Positions 4,125 through 26,434 of a stretch of DNA of 41,961 bases are shown piece after piece; the stretch's first letter is position 1; each line of letters opens with the position of its first letter. This DNA is from Acidobacteriota bacterium (GTDB lineage Bacteria > Acidobacteriota > JAAYUB01). The translations under genes were made by a program, and so were the position numbers. Where the stretch lies: contig JAGOHA010000017.1 in the NCBI GenBank assembly GCA_017996395.1, positions 1 through 41,961 on the forward strand, in the 5' to 3' direction. The notes beneath the pieces were generated by a model. It had not been told where the DNA came from. It saw only the letters and a program-made list of their open reading frames with translations, and ran no database searches.

Positions 4125-5528
4125 ATGGGCGGCAAAGGCAAGCAGGAACCGAACCAGGCTCCCCCCCTGTTTCCGGCCGAGGAGGCCGTGGAGGCGGAGG
4201 AGCCCCGCGTCCCGCTGGCGGAGCGGATGCGGCCGCGGACGCTGGACGAGTTCCGGGGGCAGGCGCATATCGTCGGGGAGGGGAAGCCCCTGCGCCGGAT
4301 GATCGAGTCGCGGCGCATCCCCTCGCTGATCCTGTGGGGCCCGCCCGGCACGGGCAAGAGCACCCTGGCCCACGTCATCGCCCGCACCCTCGACACCCAC
4401 TTCGTGAGCTACAGCGCCGTGCTGACGGGCATCAAGGAAGTGCGCGACGTCATGAGCGACGCGGCCTACTTCTTCGAGCGGACCGGGCGGCAGACACTCA
4501 TCTTCATCGACGAGATCCACCGGTTCAACAAGTCCCAGCAGGACGCCTTCCTGCCGTTTGTGGAGAAGGGGCAGGTCCTGCTCATCGGCACCACCACCGT
4601 CAACCCCAGCTTCGACCTCAACGCGGCCCTGATGAGCCGGGTCAAGGTGCTCACCCTGAGGTCGCTGGACGTGGCCGACATCGAGTCGATCCTGGCCGAG
4701 GCCCTGGCCGACCCGGACCGCGGCCTGGGCCGGCTGGGTCTGCAGGTCCCGCCGGAGCTGCTGCACAAGATCGCGGTGTTCTCCTCCGGCGACGCGCGCC
4801 GCGGCCTGAACCTGCTGGAGCAGCTGGCCGACTACGCCGAGCAGCGGGGCGTCGCGCCCACCGACGAGGAGCTGCGCGAGGTGCTCCACCAGAAGGTGCT
4901 GCTTTACGACAAGGACGGCGAGGAACACTACAACCTGCTTTCGGCGCTGCACAAGTCGATGCGCAACTCCGACCCCGACGCCACGGTCTACTGGGTGGTC
5001 CGGATGCTCGAGGCCGGCGAGGATCCGCGGAACGTCTGCCGGCGCATCCTCCAGTGCGCGTCGGAGGATGTGGGGCTGGCCGACAACCAGGCCCTGCATG
5101 TGGCCGTCCAGGCCTGGCAGGCCTATGAGCTGATGGGCCTGCCCGAGGGCCGGCTGGCCATCCTGCAGGCGGCGGTGTACGTGGCCGTCGCCCCCAAGTC
5201 CAACGCCCTGCTCCGGGCCTGGGCCGCCGCCCATCGTGACGTGGCTGAGAGCAGCGCCGAAGGCGTGCCGCTGCACCTGCGCAACGCGCCCACCCGCCTC
5301 ATGGAGGCGGAAGGCTACGGGGAGGGCTACCTGTACGCCCATGATTACCCCGAAGGGACCACGGACATGACCGGTCTGCCGCCCGCCCTGGCCGGCCGGA
5401 TTTACTACGAGCCGTCCGGGGCGGGCCTCGAGGCCCGCATCCGCGAGAAACTGCGGGAAATCGCCGAGCGGAAGGCCGCGTTCGCCAAACGGCGGCCGGA
5501 CGGTCGGAAAGGCCGCCGGACCGAGTGA
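4125..5528 (+). CDS. rarA: Replication-associated recombination protein A (AAA ATPase)
   Basis: A 467-residue AAA+ ATPase of the RarA/MgsA/WRNIP1 family, which acts at stalled replication forks and on single-stranded DNA gaps. The clamp-loader-like core has Walker A [9 protein letters not shown] (72-80), Walker B [18 protein letters not shown] (from 127), a sensor region [18 protein letters not shown], and the family C-terminal domain with [27 protein letters not shown]-type sequence (here [11 protein letters not shown]), which forms the tetramer. The extension after [17 protein letters not shown] ends in a basic tail ([11 protein letters not shown]). The N-terminus is about 30 residues longer than the conserved core and may start slightly late. 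The gene is followed by the separately promoted kinase gene. Confidence 0.96.
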   Translation: [467 protein letters not shown]

Positions 5529-5546: not shown

Positions 5547-5563
5547 TGTAAATCATGTTTACA
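5547..5563. promoter_or_regulatory. Perfect inverted repeat TGTAAA-N5-TTTACA, likely operator
   Basis: TGTAAA (5547-5552) and TTTACA (5558-5563) form a perfect dyad around TCATG. The right half is also the -35 element of the downstream promoter, so a protein bound here would occlude RNA polymerase. The cognate regulator is unknown. Confidence 0.6.
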
Positions 5564-5586
5564 ATGTCTGGTGGATACGTTACAAT
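5558..5586 (+). promoter_or_regulatory. Sigma-70-like promoter of the kinase fusion gene
   Basis: TTTACA (5558-5563), a 17-base spacer and TACAAT (5581-5586) give a near-consensus promoter. Transcription should start near 5593, giving a leader of about 27 bases with GAGGGAGAG before the ATG at 5620. Confidence 0.75.
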
Positions 5587-5619: not shown

Positions 5620-8600
5620 ATGAGCGACAAGAAGATCTTGGTTGCTGACTACAACACGCGGGAGCTTCAGCAGCTGAAGAAGATTTTCACCGATGCCGGC
5701 TTTGAAGTCGTCACGGTGCAGGACGGAAAAGCGGCCCTCGACTCGTTCGAGGCGGACAAGCCGGACGTCGTGCTCCTCTCGGCCATGCTGTCCAAGATCA
5801 ACGGGTTCGACGTCTGCCGGAAGATCAAGGACACCGAGACCGGCCGCAACGTTCCGGTGATCATCGCCACCTCGGTGTACAAGGGCCAGAAGTACCGCAA
5901 TAAGGCCCTGCACGAAAACGGCGCCAGCGAATTCATCGAGAAGCCCGTGCCCGACAACGTCATCCTGGAAACCGTCCAGCGGTTCATGGGCGACACTCGG
6001 AGCCTCATCGACACGCACCGGAGCGAATTCATCGACAAGATGGCCAAGGAGTCGGTTGCCGAAGCTCCGCCGGCACCCCCGCCGAAGCCGGCCCCGGCAC
6101 CGGCGGCCAAGGCCCCGGCGCCGCCGCCCCAACCCGCTCCGGAACCGCCCAAGCCGAAACCGGCGCCCGCCGCTCCGAAACCCGCGGACGTGGAGAGCCG
6201 CTTCGAACAGGAGATCGCCGCGACGCTGATCGCCTCGGAAACCCCGGCGGCGGCCGAGATGGACGACTCCATGGACAAGCTGCTCAGCGACACGCTCTCC
6301 GGCCTGGGACTCGACCTCGGCAAGGGCAAGCCCAAGGCAGCCCCCGCGCCGGCGCCCCCGCCGCCGGTGGTCAGCGAAGCCAAGAAAACCGAGGCCGCCC
6401 TTGAAAAGCTCGTGGAGTCGGCCAGCCAGGCGACGGCGCCCCCGCCGCCGCTGCTCGGTCCCGACACCGGCGAAATCCGCTTCGACCAGTTGCAAAAGGA
6501 AGTGAAGGCAGCCGGGGAACCGGCCGCGGCCAAGGTGGACGCGGTGGAGGCTTTCCTCCGCTCCTTCGACACCGATCTGGAGAAGAAGCTCAGCGATACG
6601 CTCAGCGGCGTGGGCCTGTCCGACACCAGCATCGACAAGGTGATCCAGCCCAAGGCGGAGGAGCCGGCGCCGGTCGACTCGAAGCCGAAGCCCGCCCCCG
6701 TCCCGCCCCCCCCGGTGGAGCCCGAGCACGAGGAAGGCACCAAGTTCGGGGATTACATTCTGGACCGGAAGATCGGCCACGGCGGCATGGCGGAGCTGTT
6801 CCGCGCGAAGAAGCGGGGCCAGGAAGGCTTCCAGAAGATCGTCGCCATCAAGCGGATCCTGCCCCATCTGTCGGACAACCAGGAACTCGTCACCATGTTC
6901 ATCGACGAGGCGAAGATCGCCGCCCAGTTGTCCCACCAAAACATCGTCACCATCTTCGATTTCGGCAAGATCAACCACTCGTTCTACATCGCGATGGAGT
7001 TCGTGGACGGTTTCGATTTCAAAAAGATCCTGAGCCGGGCGAAGGAGCTGGGCATCCGGCTGCCCCACAAGCTCGCCGCCCACATCGCCCTGCAGATCGC
7101 CAGCGCGCTGGACTACGCGCACTTCAAGAAGGACTTCGGCAATAAGGAAATGAACATCGTCCACCGGGATGTCAGCCCGCAGAACATCCTGATCTCCCGG
7201 GAGGGCGAGGTGAAGCTGGTGGATTTCGGCATCTCCAAGGCCGAGTCCAAGATCCACCACACCGTCAAGGGGGCGCTCAAGGGCAAGCTCCTGTACATGA
7301 GCCCCGAACAGGCCTGGGGCAAGCCGGTGGACAAGCGGTCGGACCTCTTCTCGCTGGGCATCGTGCTCTGCGAGGCCATCAGCGGCAAGGTCCTGTTCGA
7401 GGATTCCTCCGAATTTGACGTCCTCGAGAAAGTCCGCTCCGGCAAGATCCCGATCCTTGAAAACGAGATGCCCTCCCTGCCGCCGCGGCTCAAGAACATC
7501 ATCAACAAGGCGCTCCAGATCGACATCGGCCAGCGCTACCAGACCGCCGGCGAAATGGCCAAGGACCTGCACGATTACCTCAGCACCGGCAAGCAGCGGC
7601 CGTCGCCCAAGGACCTGGCCACGTTCCTGACCCGGATGTTCCCCGACGCGTTCGGTTTGAAGGAGAGCGAGGTCCGCAACCTGAGCTTCGACGAGTTCAT
7701 GGAGCGGGAAGATGCCCTGCCGCCGAAGGCCATGAGCGAGGAGACGGTCATCCTGGAATCCGAGGAGATGGCCGGCCTCGAAGAGATCCGCCCCGCCGCG
7801 GAGATGCCGGTGGCGCTCGAAGAAGACGAGATCGTGGTGGACGGCAAGTTCCAGCCGCCGCCGCTGGTGCAGGAGCCGATCCCGCCCAAGAAGGCCGCCG
7901 CCCCGCCGATCGCGCCCGTCGAGGAAAAACCGGCGGTGATCCGCAAGGAAAAGAAGAAGGCGCCCGAGCCGGTCAAGCCGAAAGCGGAACCGGTGAAGGC
8001 GAAGGTGGAGCCCGCGCCACCGCGGAAGGAGGCGCCGCCGCCGAAGAAGGAGGCGGTCCCGCCGCCGAAGAAGGAAGCCGTGCCCCCGCCGGCTGAGGAA
8101 AAGAAAGTCCTCACGAAGCGGTTGAAGGAGAAGCCGGCGGCCGAAAAACCGATGTTCGGTGATGTGGCGGCCGCGTCGAAGAGCTCCAACAAGGGACTGG
8201 TCATCGGCATCATCGCCGCCCTGGTGATCATCGCGGCGGGTGTGGCCGCCTACCTGATGTTCTTCAACAAGCCGGCTGTGCCGGGGCAGCCGGAACCCAT
8301 CGCCGCGGGCGCCACCGAACCGGCCGCTCCGGGTGAACCGACTCCTGCCGCCGGCGAACCGACCGCGCCCGCCGGCACCACCCCCGCCGCCACTCCGGCG
8401 GCGGCGACCGATGCCAAGCCTGAAACCAAGCCCCAGCCGCAACCCGCTCCGACCAAACCGGGCCAGCCGACGACGGTGGCCCAGCAGCCGCAACCCACGC
8501 CGGCACCGGCGAAACCAGCCACGACTGCCGCGACTCAGCCGGCAGCCCAGCCCGTCGCCCAGCCGGCCGAACCGAAACCGGAACCGGCGAAACCGGCAAC

Positions 8601-9096
8601 CCAGCCGGAACCGGCCGCCCAACCGGCCGCACCAAAGCCGGAACCGGCGACTCAACCCGCGGCCCAGCCGGCGGCCCCAAAGCCGGAGCCGACTCCCCAG
8701 CCGGCGGCTCCGAAGCCGGAACCGGCGAAACCGGCGACCCCGCCCGCGGCGGCGGACATCTCCATGGACCTGCCGGCGGCCGCCGAGAAGGCCAAGACCG
8801 GCGACCTGGTGGCCCTGGGGCCCGACGTCAAGCCGCCGAAGGAATTGCGGACCCCCTCGCCGCGGATCCCGGCCCAGGCCCAGCGCCTCAACCTCAAGGG
8901 CCGCCTGGTGTGCCGGCTGCTCGTGTCCCACACCGGCGAGGTGGAGCGGGTGCTCATCGTCTCGGCCGATTCGGTCCGGGTGAAGGAGATGCTGGGCCCT
9001 GCGGCCGAGGAGGCCCTGAAGCAATGGCGCTACACGCCGGCCGAGAAGGACGGCGTGAAGGTGAAGGTTTGGAAAACGGTGACGCTGTCGTTCTAG
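5620..9096 (+). CDS. Pseudo-receiver / Ser-Thr kinase / transmembrane / TonB C-terminal fusion protein
   Basis: A 1158-residue signalling protein. Residues 1-125 resemble a response-regulator receiver, but the phospho-acceptor Asp is Ser54 (VVLLSAML) and the acidic pair is Asp10-Tyr11; the Lys of EKP is kept. After a Pro/Ala linker carrying two copies of LSDTLSG(L/V)GL (about 222 and 324), a Hanks-type kinase spans about 375-650: glycine loop IGHGGMAELF (385-394), Lys411 of VAIK, HRDVSPQN with Asp517 and Asn522, DFG at 535-537, then a SPEQ motif. All catalytic residues are present. One membrane span lies at about 859-880, then a long P-K-P-E-P-A repeat region and a TonB C-terminal domain (about 1080-1158). 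The kinase should be cytoplasmic and the TonB domain periplasmic. Partners are unknown. Confidence 0.9.
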   Translation: MSDKKILVADYNTRELQQLKKIFTDAGFEVVTVQDGKAALDSFEADKPDVVLLSAMLSKINGFDVCRKIKDTETGRNVPVIIATSVYKGQKYRNKALHENGASEFIEKPVPDNVILETVQRFMGDTRSLIDTHRSEFIDKMAKESVAEAPPAPPPKPAPAPAAKAPAPPPQPAPEPPKPKPAPAAPKPADVESRFEQEIAATLIASETPAAAEMDDSMDKLLSDTLSGLGLDLGKGKPKAAPAPAPPPPVVSEAKKTEAALEKLVESASQATAPPPPLLGPDTGEIRFDQLQKEVKAAGEPAAAKVDAVEAFLRSFDTDLEKKLSDTLSGVGLSDTSIDKVIQPKAEEPAPVDSKPKPAPVPPPPVEPEHEEGTKFGDYILDRKIGHGGMAELFRAKKRGQEGFQKIVAIKRILPHLSDNQELVTMFIDEAKIAAQLSHQNIVTIFDFGKINHSFYIAMEFVDGFDFKKILSRAKELGIRLPHKLAAHIALQIASALDYAHFKKDFGNKEMNIVHRDVSPQNILISREGEVKLVDFGISKAESKIHHTVKGALKGKLLYMSPEQAWGKPVDKRSDLFSLGIVLCEAISGKVLFEDSSEFDVLEKVRSGKIPILENEMPSLPPRLKNIINKALQIDIGQRYQTAGEMAKDLHDYLSTGKQRPSPKDLATFLTRMFPDAFGLKESEVRNLSFDEFMEREDALPPKAMSEETVILESEEMAGLEEIRPAAEMPVALEEDEIVVDGKFQPPPLVQEPIPPKKAAAPPIAPVEEKPAVIRKEKKKAPEPVKPKAEPVKAKVEPAPPRKEAPPPKKEAVPPPKKEAVPPPAEEKKVLTKRLKEKPAAEKPMFGDVAAASKSSNKGLVIGIIAALVIIAAGVAAYLMFFNKPAVPGQPEPIAAGATEPAAPGEPTPAAGEPTAPAGTTPAATPAAATDAKPETKPQPQPAPTKPGQPTTVAQQPQPTPAPAKPATTAATQPAAQPVAQPAEPKPEPAKPATQPEPAAQPAAPKPEPATQPAAQPAAPKPEPTPQPAAPKPEPAKPATPPAAADISMDLPAAAEKAKTGDLVALGPDVKPPKELRTPSPRIPAQAQRLNLKGRLVCRLLVSHTGEVERVLIVSADSVRVKEMLGPAAEEALKQWRYTPAEKDGVKVKVWKTVTLSF

Positions 9097-9147: not shown

Positions 9148-9390
9148 ATGGAACTCAGCAAAGAACAACGGAAGTTCTACGAGGAAACCCGGGAGATGGC
9201 CCGCAAGGAAATCGAGGACATCGAGAAGAAGATCGAAGAGGAACTGGCCCGGGTCAAGCAGCGCCTCATCGACCTGCAGAACGCCAAGAAAGCGGCCCGC
9301 CAGATCTACGACGGCGCCTGCTCCCGCCTGGGCGTCAAGAGCGACCTGGCGGAATCGACGGTGGACATCCCGAAGGAGATGTCGTCCTGA
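9148..9390 (+). CDS. Small coiled-coil protein, function unknown
   Basis: An 80-residue charged protein, predicted largely helical. Residues 1-55 form a probable coiled coil (KEIEDIEKKIEEELARVKQR); the rest holds RQIYDGACSRLGV and an acidic tail. No signal peptide or membrane span is seen. The start at 9148 was chosen because GGGAGG (9135-9140) sits 7 bases upstream; an in-frame ATG at 9133 has no such site. It lies 51 bases after the kinase fusion gene on the same strand and directly before a strong terminator, so the two probably form one transcription unit. I do not recognise the family. Confidence 0.75.
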   Translation: MELSKEQRKFYEETREMARKEIEDIEKKIEEELARVKQRLIDLQNAKKAARQIYDGACSRLGVKSDLAESTVDIPKEMSS

Positions 9391-12754: not shown

Positions 12755-13903
12755 ATGGCAGTATCGGGAAAGATCAAGACCTTCCCCCTCACCGATTTGT
12801 TTCAGTGGATATCCCTGTCCCGCAAGTCGGGGGTGCTCCGGATCTCCTGCGGCGATTACCTGATTCAGGTGTATTTCCGGAAGGGCGTGCTGGTCTCCGC
12901 CACGTCCACCGAGCCATCACGGCGCTTCGGCCAGCACCTGCTGGCCCGGGGATTCCTCGACGAGGAGCGGCTGCGCCTGGCCCTGAACCACCAGGAGAAA
13001 GCCGAAGGCGAGCGGTTGCTGGGGGACGTGCTCCAGCAGCTGGGTCTCATGGACCGGGAGCAGATCGAACGCGCGCTGCGGGAGCGGGCGGCGGAGCTCG
13101 TTTTCGACCTGTTCCTGCTGGAAGACGGCGTGTTCTTCTTCGAGGAGCGGGAAGGGGTCCCCGACAACCTGGTGCCCATCAACCTGAACATCGACTCGCT
13201 CATTCTCGAGGGCGTCCGCCGCAAGGACGAGTGGGAGCGCATCCGGCAGCTGCTGCCGGACGACACGATCCGGGTGCGGGTCGTGCCGAAGCCAAAGGCG
13301 CCGGCCGGCGCACCGTCGGAGCTGCGCCGGAAGATCCTCAGCCTGTCGGACCGGGACTACTCCGTCGGCGAGATCGGCATGCATACGCGCCGGTCGGCGT
13401 TCGACCTCTACTTCGAGGTGTTCCGGCTGATCAAGGACGGGATCATGGTGATCGTCGAGCCGGTGGCGCCGCCGGCGCCACCGCCGCCGGCCGAGACGGA
13501 CACCCGGCGGTTCGAGGCCGAGATCCGCAACCTGGCGAAAGGGTGCCTCTACCAGAGCGCCTGGGCGCTGCTGCGGGACATGCAGGGAAAGCTCGCCAAT
13601 CCCGACGACCTGCGGGAAGTGGAACGCTGGCTGCTGGAGCACGAAAACGTGTTCCTGCGCCAGAGATACCACGACACCGACGTGCCGGCAATGAGCGGGC
13701 CGCCGGATAAGGTCCGGCGGGAAAAACTGAGCCCCCGCGAAGGCTTTCTGCTCAGCCGCCTGGGAGCGGGCGTGACGGTGAAAGACCTGTGCCAGGTGAT
13801 GCCCCTGGCCGAGATCGAGATTCTCCGCCTGCTTGATTCCCTGGAACGGAAGGGCGTGATCAGCTTGACGTCTCGTACGTCCGGATCTGGCCCAGCCGGC
13901 TGA
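12755..13903 (+). CDS. DUF4388 protein with MshEN-like c-di-GMP-binding type helical motifs
   Basis: A 382-residue cytoplasmic protein. Residues 1-50 match the DUF4388 start (GKIKTFPLTDLFQWISLSRKSGVLRI). Two helical repeats follow of the kind at the N-terminus of GspE/MshE ATPases: RRFGQHLLARGFLDEERLRL (from 56) and LLGDVLQQLGLMDREQIERA (88-107). The first keeps the R-x-G-x-x-L form; the second has Leu88 where Arg is expected. In MshEN domains such pairs bind cyclic di-GMP; binding here is inference. A second DUF4388-like stretch (LRRKILSLSDRDYSVGEIGM) and a winged-helix-like C-terminus follow. No clear Shine-Dalgarno site precedes ATG 12755; it may be coupled to tatA. Its last 44 bases overlap the convergent pseudopilin gene. 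Confidence 0.8.
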   Translation: MAVSGKIKTFPLTDLFQWISLSRKSGVLRISCGDYLIQVYFRKGVLVSATSTEPSRRFGQHLLARGFLDEERLRLALNHQEKAEGERLLGDVLQQLGLMDREQIERALRERAAELVFDLFLLEDGVFFFEEREGVPDNLVPINLNIDSLILEGVRRKDEWERIRQLLPDDTIRVRVVPKPKAPAGAPSELRRKILSLSDRDYSVGEIGMHTRRSAFDLYFEVFRLIKDGIMVIVEPVAPPAPPPPAETDTRRFEAEIRNLAKGCLYQSAWALLRDMQGKLANPDDLREVERWLLEHENVFLRQRYHDTDVPAMSGPPDKVRREKLSPREGFLLSRLGAGVTVKDLCQVMPLAEIEILRLLDSLERKGVISLTSRTSGSGPAG

Positions 13904-24440: not shown

Positions 24441-26039
24441 TCACGGAGAATCCACCTGTCCCTGCGGCTCCTCTTCCGCTGCCAGCCGGAAGTGGACGGT
24501 CACCGTGCCGCGAACCGGGACTGGACGGCCGTTCAGGATCATCGGCTTGTACCGCCATTTTCGAACCGCATCCGCCGCCGCTGCTTGCAGCAGCGGGTGT
24601 CCGGACACGGGGCGCACGTCGCTGACCTCGCCCCGGGTGTTGACCTGGATATCCAAAACGACAGTGCCCTGAAGGCGCGCCGCACGGGCCACCGCCGGAT
24701 ATTGCGGCGGTACACGCTCCAGGGGGGCGGACTCCAGATAGTCCGTGGATACATGGATCGGGGTCTCGTCTTCTGCGTCGGTCAGTGATCCGTCCCCTGC
24801 CGGGTGGGGAGCCGCTGCCCCCTTCCGGACCGATTTCCCGTCGCCAAGCGGTGCGTCGAGAACGCTTCCCTCGAAACCTCCCTCGACGCCTCCCTCGAAA
24901 ATTTCGTCCGCGGCGCCGTCGTCGGCGGAGGGCGGGGGAGGCGGCAACTCGATCGAGACCTCATCCGATGATGCCGGATCCAGGCGGTCCGGGGGAGCGG
25001 ACACGGCCGGTCCCTCAGCCAGCGCGTGAATGTACCCGGCCATCGTTCGATGGACCCACCAGTGGGCGCCGACCGCCAGGGCCAGAATCGCCAAAAAAAC
25101 GATTGGCTGGATCATCGGTGCGGTTGTCCGGCCGCCGTCCCGCCGGTACCGCCAGGCCAGGAATGCTGCCGGTAGCAGAGCCAGGATACCACCGCCGAAA
25201 TACAACAGCGTCAGATGAGGAGATGAAAGGACCAGATCGTGGGACGCGGTCATGGCGAACTGCGTACAGACGTCGATCCGGAACAGCAGGGCCACTGTGC
25301 CGGCCGCCGACCAGAAGGCCAGTCCCACCGCCGCCGCGGCGGCCACCCCGCCTGGCGAGCGCCCCGCCCATCCGGACAGAGCCCACAGCACCACCGCTCC
25401 GACGGCCAGGAGCACCAACCACCCGGCCGATTCGTGGCGGAGCACCCAGAACACGATCAATCCCAGCGCCGGCAGCCCCATCGCGGCGGCCGGTAAAATG
25501 CCCGCCGGCTGGAGCCGCCGTTCCCGCTCGCCCAGGGCCAGGAGCAGCAAGCCCGCTCCGATGGAGGCCAGCAGCCAGCAGGCGAACCAGGAGCCCGACA
25601 AAGGAAACAGCATGATCTCGGCCAGGCCGGCGGCCACGGCCCCCATTCCCCCAACTCCCATCGCCACGGCCTTGTCGATCTCGGCCAAGCCGGGCCGGGC
25701 CAGAAACTCTCCGGCCAGCCAGGGAAGAATTCCGGCAGCCCAGCAGGCGGCGGCCGGAATGCGCCAACCCAGGCCGCGGAGCACGAGACAGACAACGGCG
25801 ACAACCACCGCCGTGGCTGCCACTGCCAGCCAGATCAGCAGATGTAGCTTGGGGATTGCCGCCCAGATGTCCGCTCCGGCCACCGGCTGACTTCTCGCGA
25901 TCCATAGCCCCATCGTGCCCAGGGCGGCCATCGAGCCGAGGAGGGGCAGGGCGGCGGCTGAAACGATGCCTGGCGTAGTCGAACGGGTCCGGACGGAAGG
26001 ATCGGGCGCCTCCGCACCGGATGCATGCACCGTGGGCAT
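24441..26039 (-). CDS. Polytopic membrane protein with C-terminal TonB domain
   Basis: A 532-residue protein with about ten hydrophobic spans in residues 25-370, then an acidic Pro/Gly-rich linker (PPPPPSADDGAADEIFEGG) and a TonB C-terminal domain in the last 90 residues (PPQYPAVARAARLQGTVVLDIQVNTRGEVSDVRPVSGHPLLQAAAADAVRKWRYKP is the region; key motif YPAVARAARLQG then a WRYKP). Classical TonB has one N-terminal anchor, so ten spans are unusual; the membrane part has no family I recognise. The start at 26039 has GGAGG upstream; in-frame ATGs further upstream give non-membrane arginine-rich sequence and were rejected. No exbB, exbD or outer-membrane receptor is nearby. It may transduce energy or act as a structural envelope linker. 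Confidence 0.78.
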   Translation of the reverse strand: MPTVHASGAEAPDPSVRTRSTTPGIVSAAALPLLGSMAALGTMGLWIARSQPVAGADIWAAIPKLHLLIWLAVAATAVVVAVVCLVLRGLGWRIPAAACWAAGILPWLAGEFLARPGLAEIDKAVAMGVGGMGAVAAGLAEIMLFPLSGSWFACWLLASIGAGLLLLALGERERRLQPAGILPAAAMGLPALGLIVFWVLRHESAGWLVLLAVGAVVLWALSGWAGRSPGGVAAAAAVGLAFWSAAGTVALLFRIDVCTQFAMTASHDLVLSSPHLTLLYFGGGILALLPAAFLAWRYRRDGGRTTAPMIQPIVFLAILALAVGAHWWVHRTMAGYIHALAEGPAVSAPPDRLDPASSDEVSIELPPPPPSADDGAADEIFEGGVEGGFEGSVLDAPLGDGKSVRKGAAAPHPAGDGSLTDAEDETPIHVSTDYLESAPLERVPPQYPAVARAARLQGTVVLDIQVNTRGEVSDVRPVSGHPLLQAAAADAVRKWRYKPMILNGRPVPVRGTVTVHFRLAAEEEPQGQVDSP

Positions 26040-26434
26040 GAGTGACCTCCTGAACCGTATCGGTTTGGCCCATTTCTTCCTGGTCGTGCGCCGGCGGGCC
26101 GGGCGGCGCCACATCCTGCCCCAACGCCCAAAACGGTGCAGGCGCAGGATCCCGAGTGGATGTCCGCAAAGAAGGAGGAGTCGGAACAATGGTACCATGC
26201 GGTGCGTGGCGGCATCAAGAACCGTCGGTTCGGCACGTGATGAATTGCACCCGTCCGGCATTCGCGCCGCTGCGGTGCACGGGCGGCGCGGGGCCAGGCA
26301 GAACTCGGGGCGTGACGGTGCGTTCGTGACCGCCCGTCCACCCGGTTGTTGCCGCCCCTTCGGTTATCGGTATGCAAGGGCAGCGATTTGCTGTAATAAT
26401 GATGATTCTGCAAGAACTCACCGGGAGGTGTCCC
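26040..26434. other. Divergent intergenic region, no gene seen
   Basis: The 395 bases separate the TonB-domain gene (minus) from the flavin-reductase-like gene (plus). They contain the two ribosome binding sites and an AT-rich TGTAATAAT at 26392-26400 that could be a -10 element for the plus-strand gene, but I find no convincing -35. Open frames here are arginine-rich and unlike proteins. Confidence 0.4.

Follow-up and report, generated by a model that had tools for sequence, protein, structure and literature searches.

The window, meaning the whole stretch of 41,961 nucleotides from an Acidobacteriota bacterium that was analysed here, carries on its forward strand a gene for a large protein that begins with a receiver (REC), continues through a disordered linker into a Ser/Thr kinase and, after one membrane span and a Pro-rich linker, ends in a C-terminal TonB_C domain (Table 1). 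The Pfam models Response_reg, Pkinase and TonB_C each match above their curated cut-offs, and one hydrophobic span separates the kinase from TonB_C, which bears out the order receiver-kinase-span-TonB_C read by an earlier note on this DNA. Judging from its sequence, the length of the Pro-rich linker would probably suffice to span much of the periplasm.

Directly downstream lies a second, small gene, whose start is 51 bases past the stop codon of the large gene and is preceded by GGGAGG; the stretch separating the two genes showed no terminator-like site. The promoter-like site upstream of the large gene is the sole match between positions 5400 and 9600, where 0.3 are expected in shuffled sequences. 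For the small protein, Pfam and NCBIfam gave only sub-threshold coiled-coil-like matches, and the PDB likewise gave nothing convincing.

Of the remaining neighbours, which were named from their translation or a Pfam match, those upstream are rarA-like and trmH-like, and those downstream comprise a radical SAM gene and one resembling selB. In this genus only, accA lies further upstream of the large gene; a link between accA and the two genes was rejected because the proximity is confined to the genus. Elsewhere in the window, a DUF4388 protein (12755-13903, + strand; 111 bits) is encoded 3.4 kb downstream of the small gene, and a 606-residue protein (24444-26261, - strand) combines many hydrophobic stretches and no named N-terminal family with a C-terminal TonB_C domain (72.8 bits).

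Table 1. Features of the large gene, its upstream region and the small partner gene, in window coordinates.
Feature	Position	Strand	Basis
Sigma-70-like promoter match, TTTACA-17-TACAAT	5558..5586	+	10/12 matches; consensus match only
Pseudo-receiver / Ser-Thr kinase / TM / TonB_C protein	5620..9096	+	ORF from ATG to stop, 1158 aa
Pseudo-receiver domain, residues 6-119	5635..5976	+	PF00072, 68.4 bits; alignment; AlphaFold model with mean pLDDT 92.9, (beta-alpha)5 fold
Linker motif A, copy 1, SMDKLLSDTLSG, residues 217-228	6268..6303	+	
Linker motif A, copy 2, DLEKKLSDTLSG, residues 319-330	6574..6609	+	Leu324, Thr327 and Gly330 invariant in 16 orthologues
Ser/Thr kinase domain, residues 380-641	6757..7542	+	PF00069, 142.7 bits; catalytic residues intact
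Single membrane span, about residues 858-881, no His	8191..8262	+	Hydropathy
Pro/Ala/Lys/Glu-rich linker, residues 882-1060	8263..8799	+	Sequence
TonB_C domain, residues 1081-1158	8860..9093	+	PF03544, 45.1 bits, cut-off 24.6
Linked partner gene, 80-aa protein, one long helix (residues 5-61)	9148..9390	+	No known family; helix predicted

Residues and fold of the receiver and kinase

By profile and fold, the N-terminal domain is a receiver in which Tyr11 and Ser54 replace Asp, so that at least one of the five catalytic residues is absent; the aligned key positions read Asp10, Tyr11, Ser54, Thr84, Phe105 and Lys108, and it is at Tyr11 and Ser54 that the domain departs from a canonical receiver with its two acidic residues, acceptor Asp, Thr/Ser and Lys. 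Other receivers of the same genome have Asp at position 11 in 11 of 11 scored and at the site aligned with 54 in 12 of 12 sampled, which substantiates the earlier claim that the phospho-acceptor Asp has given way to Ser. Two possible sources of error raised together with that claim were not borne out: the receiver alignment holds no conserved Asp elsewhere in the acidic pocket, and a sequencing error at codon 54 is rejected, because Ser is also read in five more assemblies, drawn from the window's genus, family and order.

Across the family, position 11, the second metal-binding Asp site, is non-acidic in all 79 scored members (Tyr in 51). Position 54, scored in 80 members with a detectable receiver, is Ser in 28, Asp in 14, Arg in 10, Glu in 9, Thr in 9, Asn in 5, Ala in 4 and Tyr in 1; 11 of the 14 cases of Asp54 are Geothrix-type proteins with Gly at position 11. 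At least 11 changes at position 54 were counted on a quick tree of 63 members with several long branches, and the window's own order is the only group in which Ser54 does not vary. On the alignment, what all members have in common is the lesion at position 11, with the residue at 54 a secondary matter.

The predicted receiver has the standard fold and resembles many solved receivers in a Foldseek comparison, FrzS among them; in the model, Ser54 closes the beta-3 strand and lies at the bottom of the pocket. Members of the genus give dN/dS values of 0.05-0.07 for the receiver, at most 0.01 for the kinase, about 0.03 for TonB_C and 0.15-0.22 for most linker comparisons. The receiver thus looks dead for Asp phosphotransfer yet maintained, being under purifying selection. 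The non-acidic position 11, the fold predicted to be intact and this selection, together with the precedent of FrzS, lend good support to the earlier proposal that the pseudo-receiver acts by binding and not by phosphotransfer.

The FrzS pseudo-receiver of Myxococcus xanthus (PMC1974792; PDB 2gkg, 2i6f), which matches the receiver described here in sequence (E 3.5e-12) and in fold (TM 0.81), also lacks the acceptor Asp and has the second residue of the acidic pair replaced (Ser10 in FrzS, Tyr11 here). It differs in being without the Thr switch residue, kept here as Thr84, and in not being a membrane kinase with TonB_C. FrzS provides the precedent for a receiver without Asp chemistry that acts by protein contacts (PMC1974792), and it binds SgmX (PMC12632262). 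Fungal Rim15 kinases also join a protein kinase to a receiver with another residue, in many of them Glu, in place of the Asp, but they are eukaryotic, carry the receiver at the C-terminus and have no TonB_C (PMC12632262). More generally, key residues are missing from several percent of receivers, and a non-acidic second DD residue, as in the present protein, is found in about 80% of pseudo-receivers (PMC4395418, PMC12632262). TonB is not mentioned in the searched text of either of these papers, and the mode of action of bacterial pseudo-receivers is stated to be an open question (PMC12632262).

The kinase appears intact in sequence, as the earlier note had held: Lys411, Glu430, the HRD motif (515-517), Asn522 and the DFG motif (535-537) are invariant in 16 orthologues, and the Gly loop, VAIK Lys, HRD and DFG that mark Hanks-type Ser/Thr kinases are all present. 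Thr548 in the activation segment, invariant in 16 of 16 orthologues, is the likelier predicted autophosphorylation site when set against Ser54. PknB-type transmembrane Ser/Thr kinases share the kinase domain, the single span and an extracytoplasmic C-terminal domain, whereas here TonB_C stands in place of PASTA or a similar sensor, a receiver precedes the kinase and a small linked partner follows; the NCBIfam PknB model reaches 254 bits against a cut-off of 450, and no PASTA domain was found. An identity as an anti-phage defence kinase (PD-T4-6, MADS6) was also considered and rejected, since nearly all PADLOC matches cover the kinase domain only and the neighbours are housekeeping genes. The genome, at 3.7 Mb, contains more than 25 other open frames matching this kinase domain, a large kinase set for its size.

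Distribution of the gene pair and of the linker motifs

With the receiver as query against 40 related genomes, long homologues were recovered in many Acidobacteriota families, which rules out an assembly artefact for 5620-9096; the named relatives belong to Acidobacteria, Thermoanaerobaculia, Holophagae and Aminicenantes. The family sample comprised complete genes, of which 16 orthologues were aligned, and 80 added loci from named organisms, with domains mapped. Homologues with the same domain order, for which the earlier note had proposed a search, occur across Acidobacteriota alongside three reduced architectures: REC-kinase-TM without TonB_C (Geothrix, including named strains of that genus), REC-TM-TonB_C without the kinase, and a short TM-TonB_C form without REC and kinase. 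The small gene is retained in all three, persisting without TonB_C (Geothrix L082, L086), without the kinase (L057, L188-L190, L200) and without REC and kinase (L174, L176).

Overall, 56 of the 60 distinct module loci (~93%) have the small gene directly after the large one, a figure that includes loci first scored as lacking it, mostly because the open frames overlap; the median gap between the two frames is 4 bases. A large protein without the small gene nearby was seen at L064, L065, L078 and L121. Starting from the small gene, the large gene was found upstream in 48 of 52 loci; one of the remaining four is truncated by a contig end, and in the other three an Era-like gene precedes a separate copy. 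In family f48 (L193, L194, L195), the small protein has an additional copy that follows an Era-like gene and is set apart from the kinase gene. Among 199 Acidobacteriota genomes, 73 matched the small-protein profile, nearly always with a single hit, and no match was obtained in 33 genomes (Myxococcota, Nitrospirae and others) that carry the closest kinases not belonging to the family; a further match outside these 33, labelled Deltaproteobacteria (L101), carries the whole module.

Two short linker motifs recur in most of the architectures: motif A, approximately DLDKxLxxTLSG (in shorter form [LI]xxTLSG), and motif B, approximately LTSEDLFGDVL (in shorter form TSEDLFGDVL). Using position weights trained on other clades, and counting as a pass at least one motif (A or B) at p <= 0.01, passes were obtained for 6 of 6 proteins of the window's own order, 18 of 18 Geothrix-like proteins and 6 of the 7 proteins that lack the kinase or belong to the Glu54 clade; of the 37 control kinases, 1 passed. 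Among the proteins without REC and kinase (L174 type), which keep the small gene, 1 of 6 passes; given this result, the idea that the motif is the docking site of the small protein may be wrong. The shared lesion at position 11, the partner gene, these motifs and the accD-folC synteny of relatives, described below, had been overlooked in the earlier note.

A proposed docking module and competing readings

The reading to which we give modest preference is that of a two-gene module, in which a membrane-anchored pseudo-receiver kinase would dock with a helical partner while its TonB_C domain reaches an envelope protein. With the metal site broken by Tyr11 and the acceptor gone, the receiver would no longer undergo Asp phosphorylation and would survive as a docking domain, forming a docking platform together with the linker motifs. 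The helical protein of about 80 residues would be a stable subunit, most likely binding the cytoplasmic N-terminal half, probably at the linker motifs, and may help to assemble or gate the kinase. The anatomy of the protein suggests a cytoplasmic kinase with the span as its anchor, from which the Pro-rich arm and TonB_C would reach an envelope partner outside; a ligand of TonB_C and a substrate of the kinase are presumed. GltG, compared below, is an example of a signalling domain joined through a span to TonB_C within an envelope machine (PMC3169522). Information on the state of the envelope might thereby pass to the kinase, or information on the kinase to the envelope, the direction being likewise conjectural.

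The reduced architectures qualify this picture. Since the small protein outlasts the loss of the kinase, of TonB_C or of REC, its binding site is probably in the common part, that is, the cytoplasmic linker or the juxtamembrane region; and since several lineages have lost the kinase, kinase output cannot be the sole function. Domain content, residues, selection, gene linkage and motif conservation are direct observations, and gene linkage can also be ancestral synteny, accD and folC being linked in some 25 loci too. A broader and more tentative reading joins these points in an as yet undescribed envelope-spanning complex, with a constant helical subunit and linker motifs, a dead docking receiver and interchangeable kinase and TonB_C parts, which possibly couples the supply of fatty acids to the state of the envelope by way of the accD operon.

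A mainly structural scaffold between cytoplasm and outer membrane, with the kinase as a dispensable addition, is unlikely but has a counterpart in GltG of Myxococcus xanthus, which shares with the present protein a cytoplasmic signalling domain, one span, a Pro-rich arm and TonB_C, and is part of the gliding machinery; its own domains, PF00498 and PF03544, stand in the same order (FHA-TM-TonB_C; PMC3169522). GltG differs in having an FHA domain (PF00498) in place of receiver and kinase, in being encoded within a cluster of motility genes and in interacting with the AglR proton channel. A scaffold would fit the kinase-less REC-TM-TonB_C lineages, which keep the small gene and its linkage; the retention of the kinase by most members, with invariant catalytic residues and the very low dN/dS within the genus, does not, and neither does the loss of TonB_C in some lineages (Geothrix) that kept the kinase and a terminal span.

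The most regular neighbours after the small gene are accD and then folC, on the same strand downstream in about 25 loci (L055, L062, L063, L075, L110 and others) that represent at least four clades and include L064 and L121, both without the small gene. This arrangement could mean that the module, from an ancestral operon with accD-folC, tunes the supply of fatty-acid or envelope precursors, the kinase acting on acetyl-CoA carboxylase or a pathway neighbour. Such a role is nevertheless improbable, as accD-folC are absent beside the module in the window's own order, in Geothrix and in gp7 loci, and are a common housekeeping pair that may reflect passive synteny; the proximity of accA to the window gene is limited to the genus.

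Phosphorylation of Ser54 by the attached kinase, which would mimic phospho-Asp and switch the receiver, is very unlikely. Ser or Thr occupies position 54 in 37 of 80 scored receivers, and Glu, a possible phospho-mimic, occurs in each of the seven members that have a detectable receiver but no kinase (L057, L065, L188, L189, L190, L196, L200); this last pattern is striking, but it amounts to 2 to 4 independent pairs, too few to reach significance, and L185 has both a kinase and Glu54. In addition, many members with an intact kinase have Arg, Ala, Asn or Tyr at this position, the residue has changed repeatedly on the tree, and Ser54 ends a core strand in the model. As a family feature, the earlier suggestion that Ser54 is a target of the attached kinase therefore fails, while a lineage-specific role may exist in the window's own order, where Ser is constant.

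In TonB and TolA, a His in the span is the residue that couples the protein to the proton channel. A genuine TonB, coupled to ExbB/ExbD through its span and energising outer-membrane receptors under kinase control, is the least probable reading: TonB_C above its cut-off, the Pro-rich arm and an ExbB/TolQ-like gene that, in some 15 loci belonging to one clade, lies 0.8-1.9 kb upstream in divergent orientation would agree with it, but the best span is without the coupling His in 98 of 100 module proteins, including the one described here, and no ExbB-like gene is close to the window gene, while elsewhere it lies beyond yebC, recalling the common yebC-ruv-tolQR cluster.

Returning to the docking module, its constituent parts are known singly, whereas the domain order, the orphan partner and the linker motifs are apparently undescribed in the open-access literature searched, in which no paper describing the fused architecture was found. 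Taken together, the gene pair probably represents a conserved, little-known two-gene signalling module in part of Acidobacteriota. By providing a pseudo-receiver together with a genetic partner, a kinase output and well-delimited short motifs, it makes docking directly testable, and it adds a TonB_C-bearing kinase to the possible phosphorylation links between envelope and cytoplasm, in a phylum that has been little worked on experimentally.
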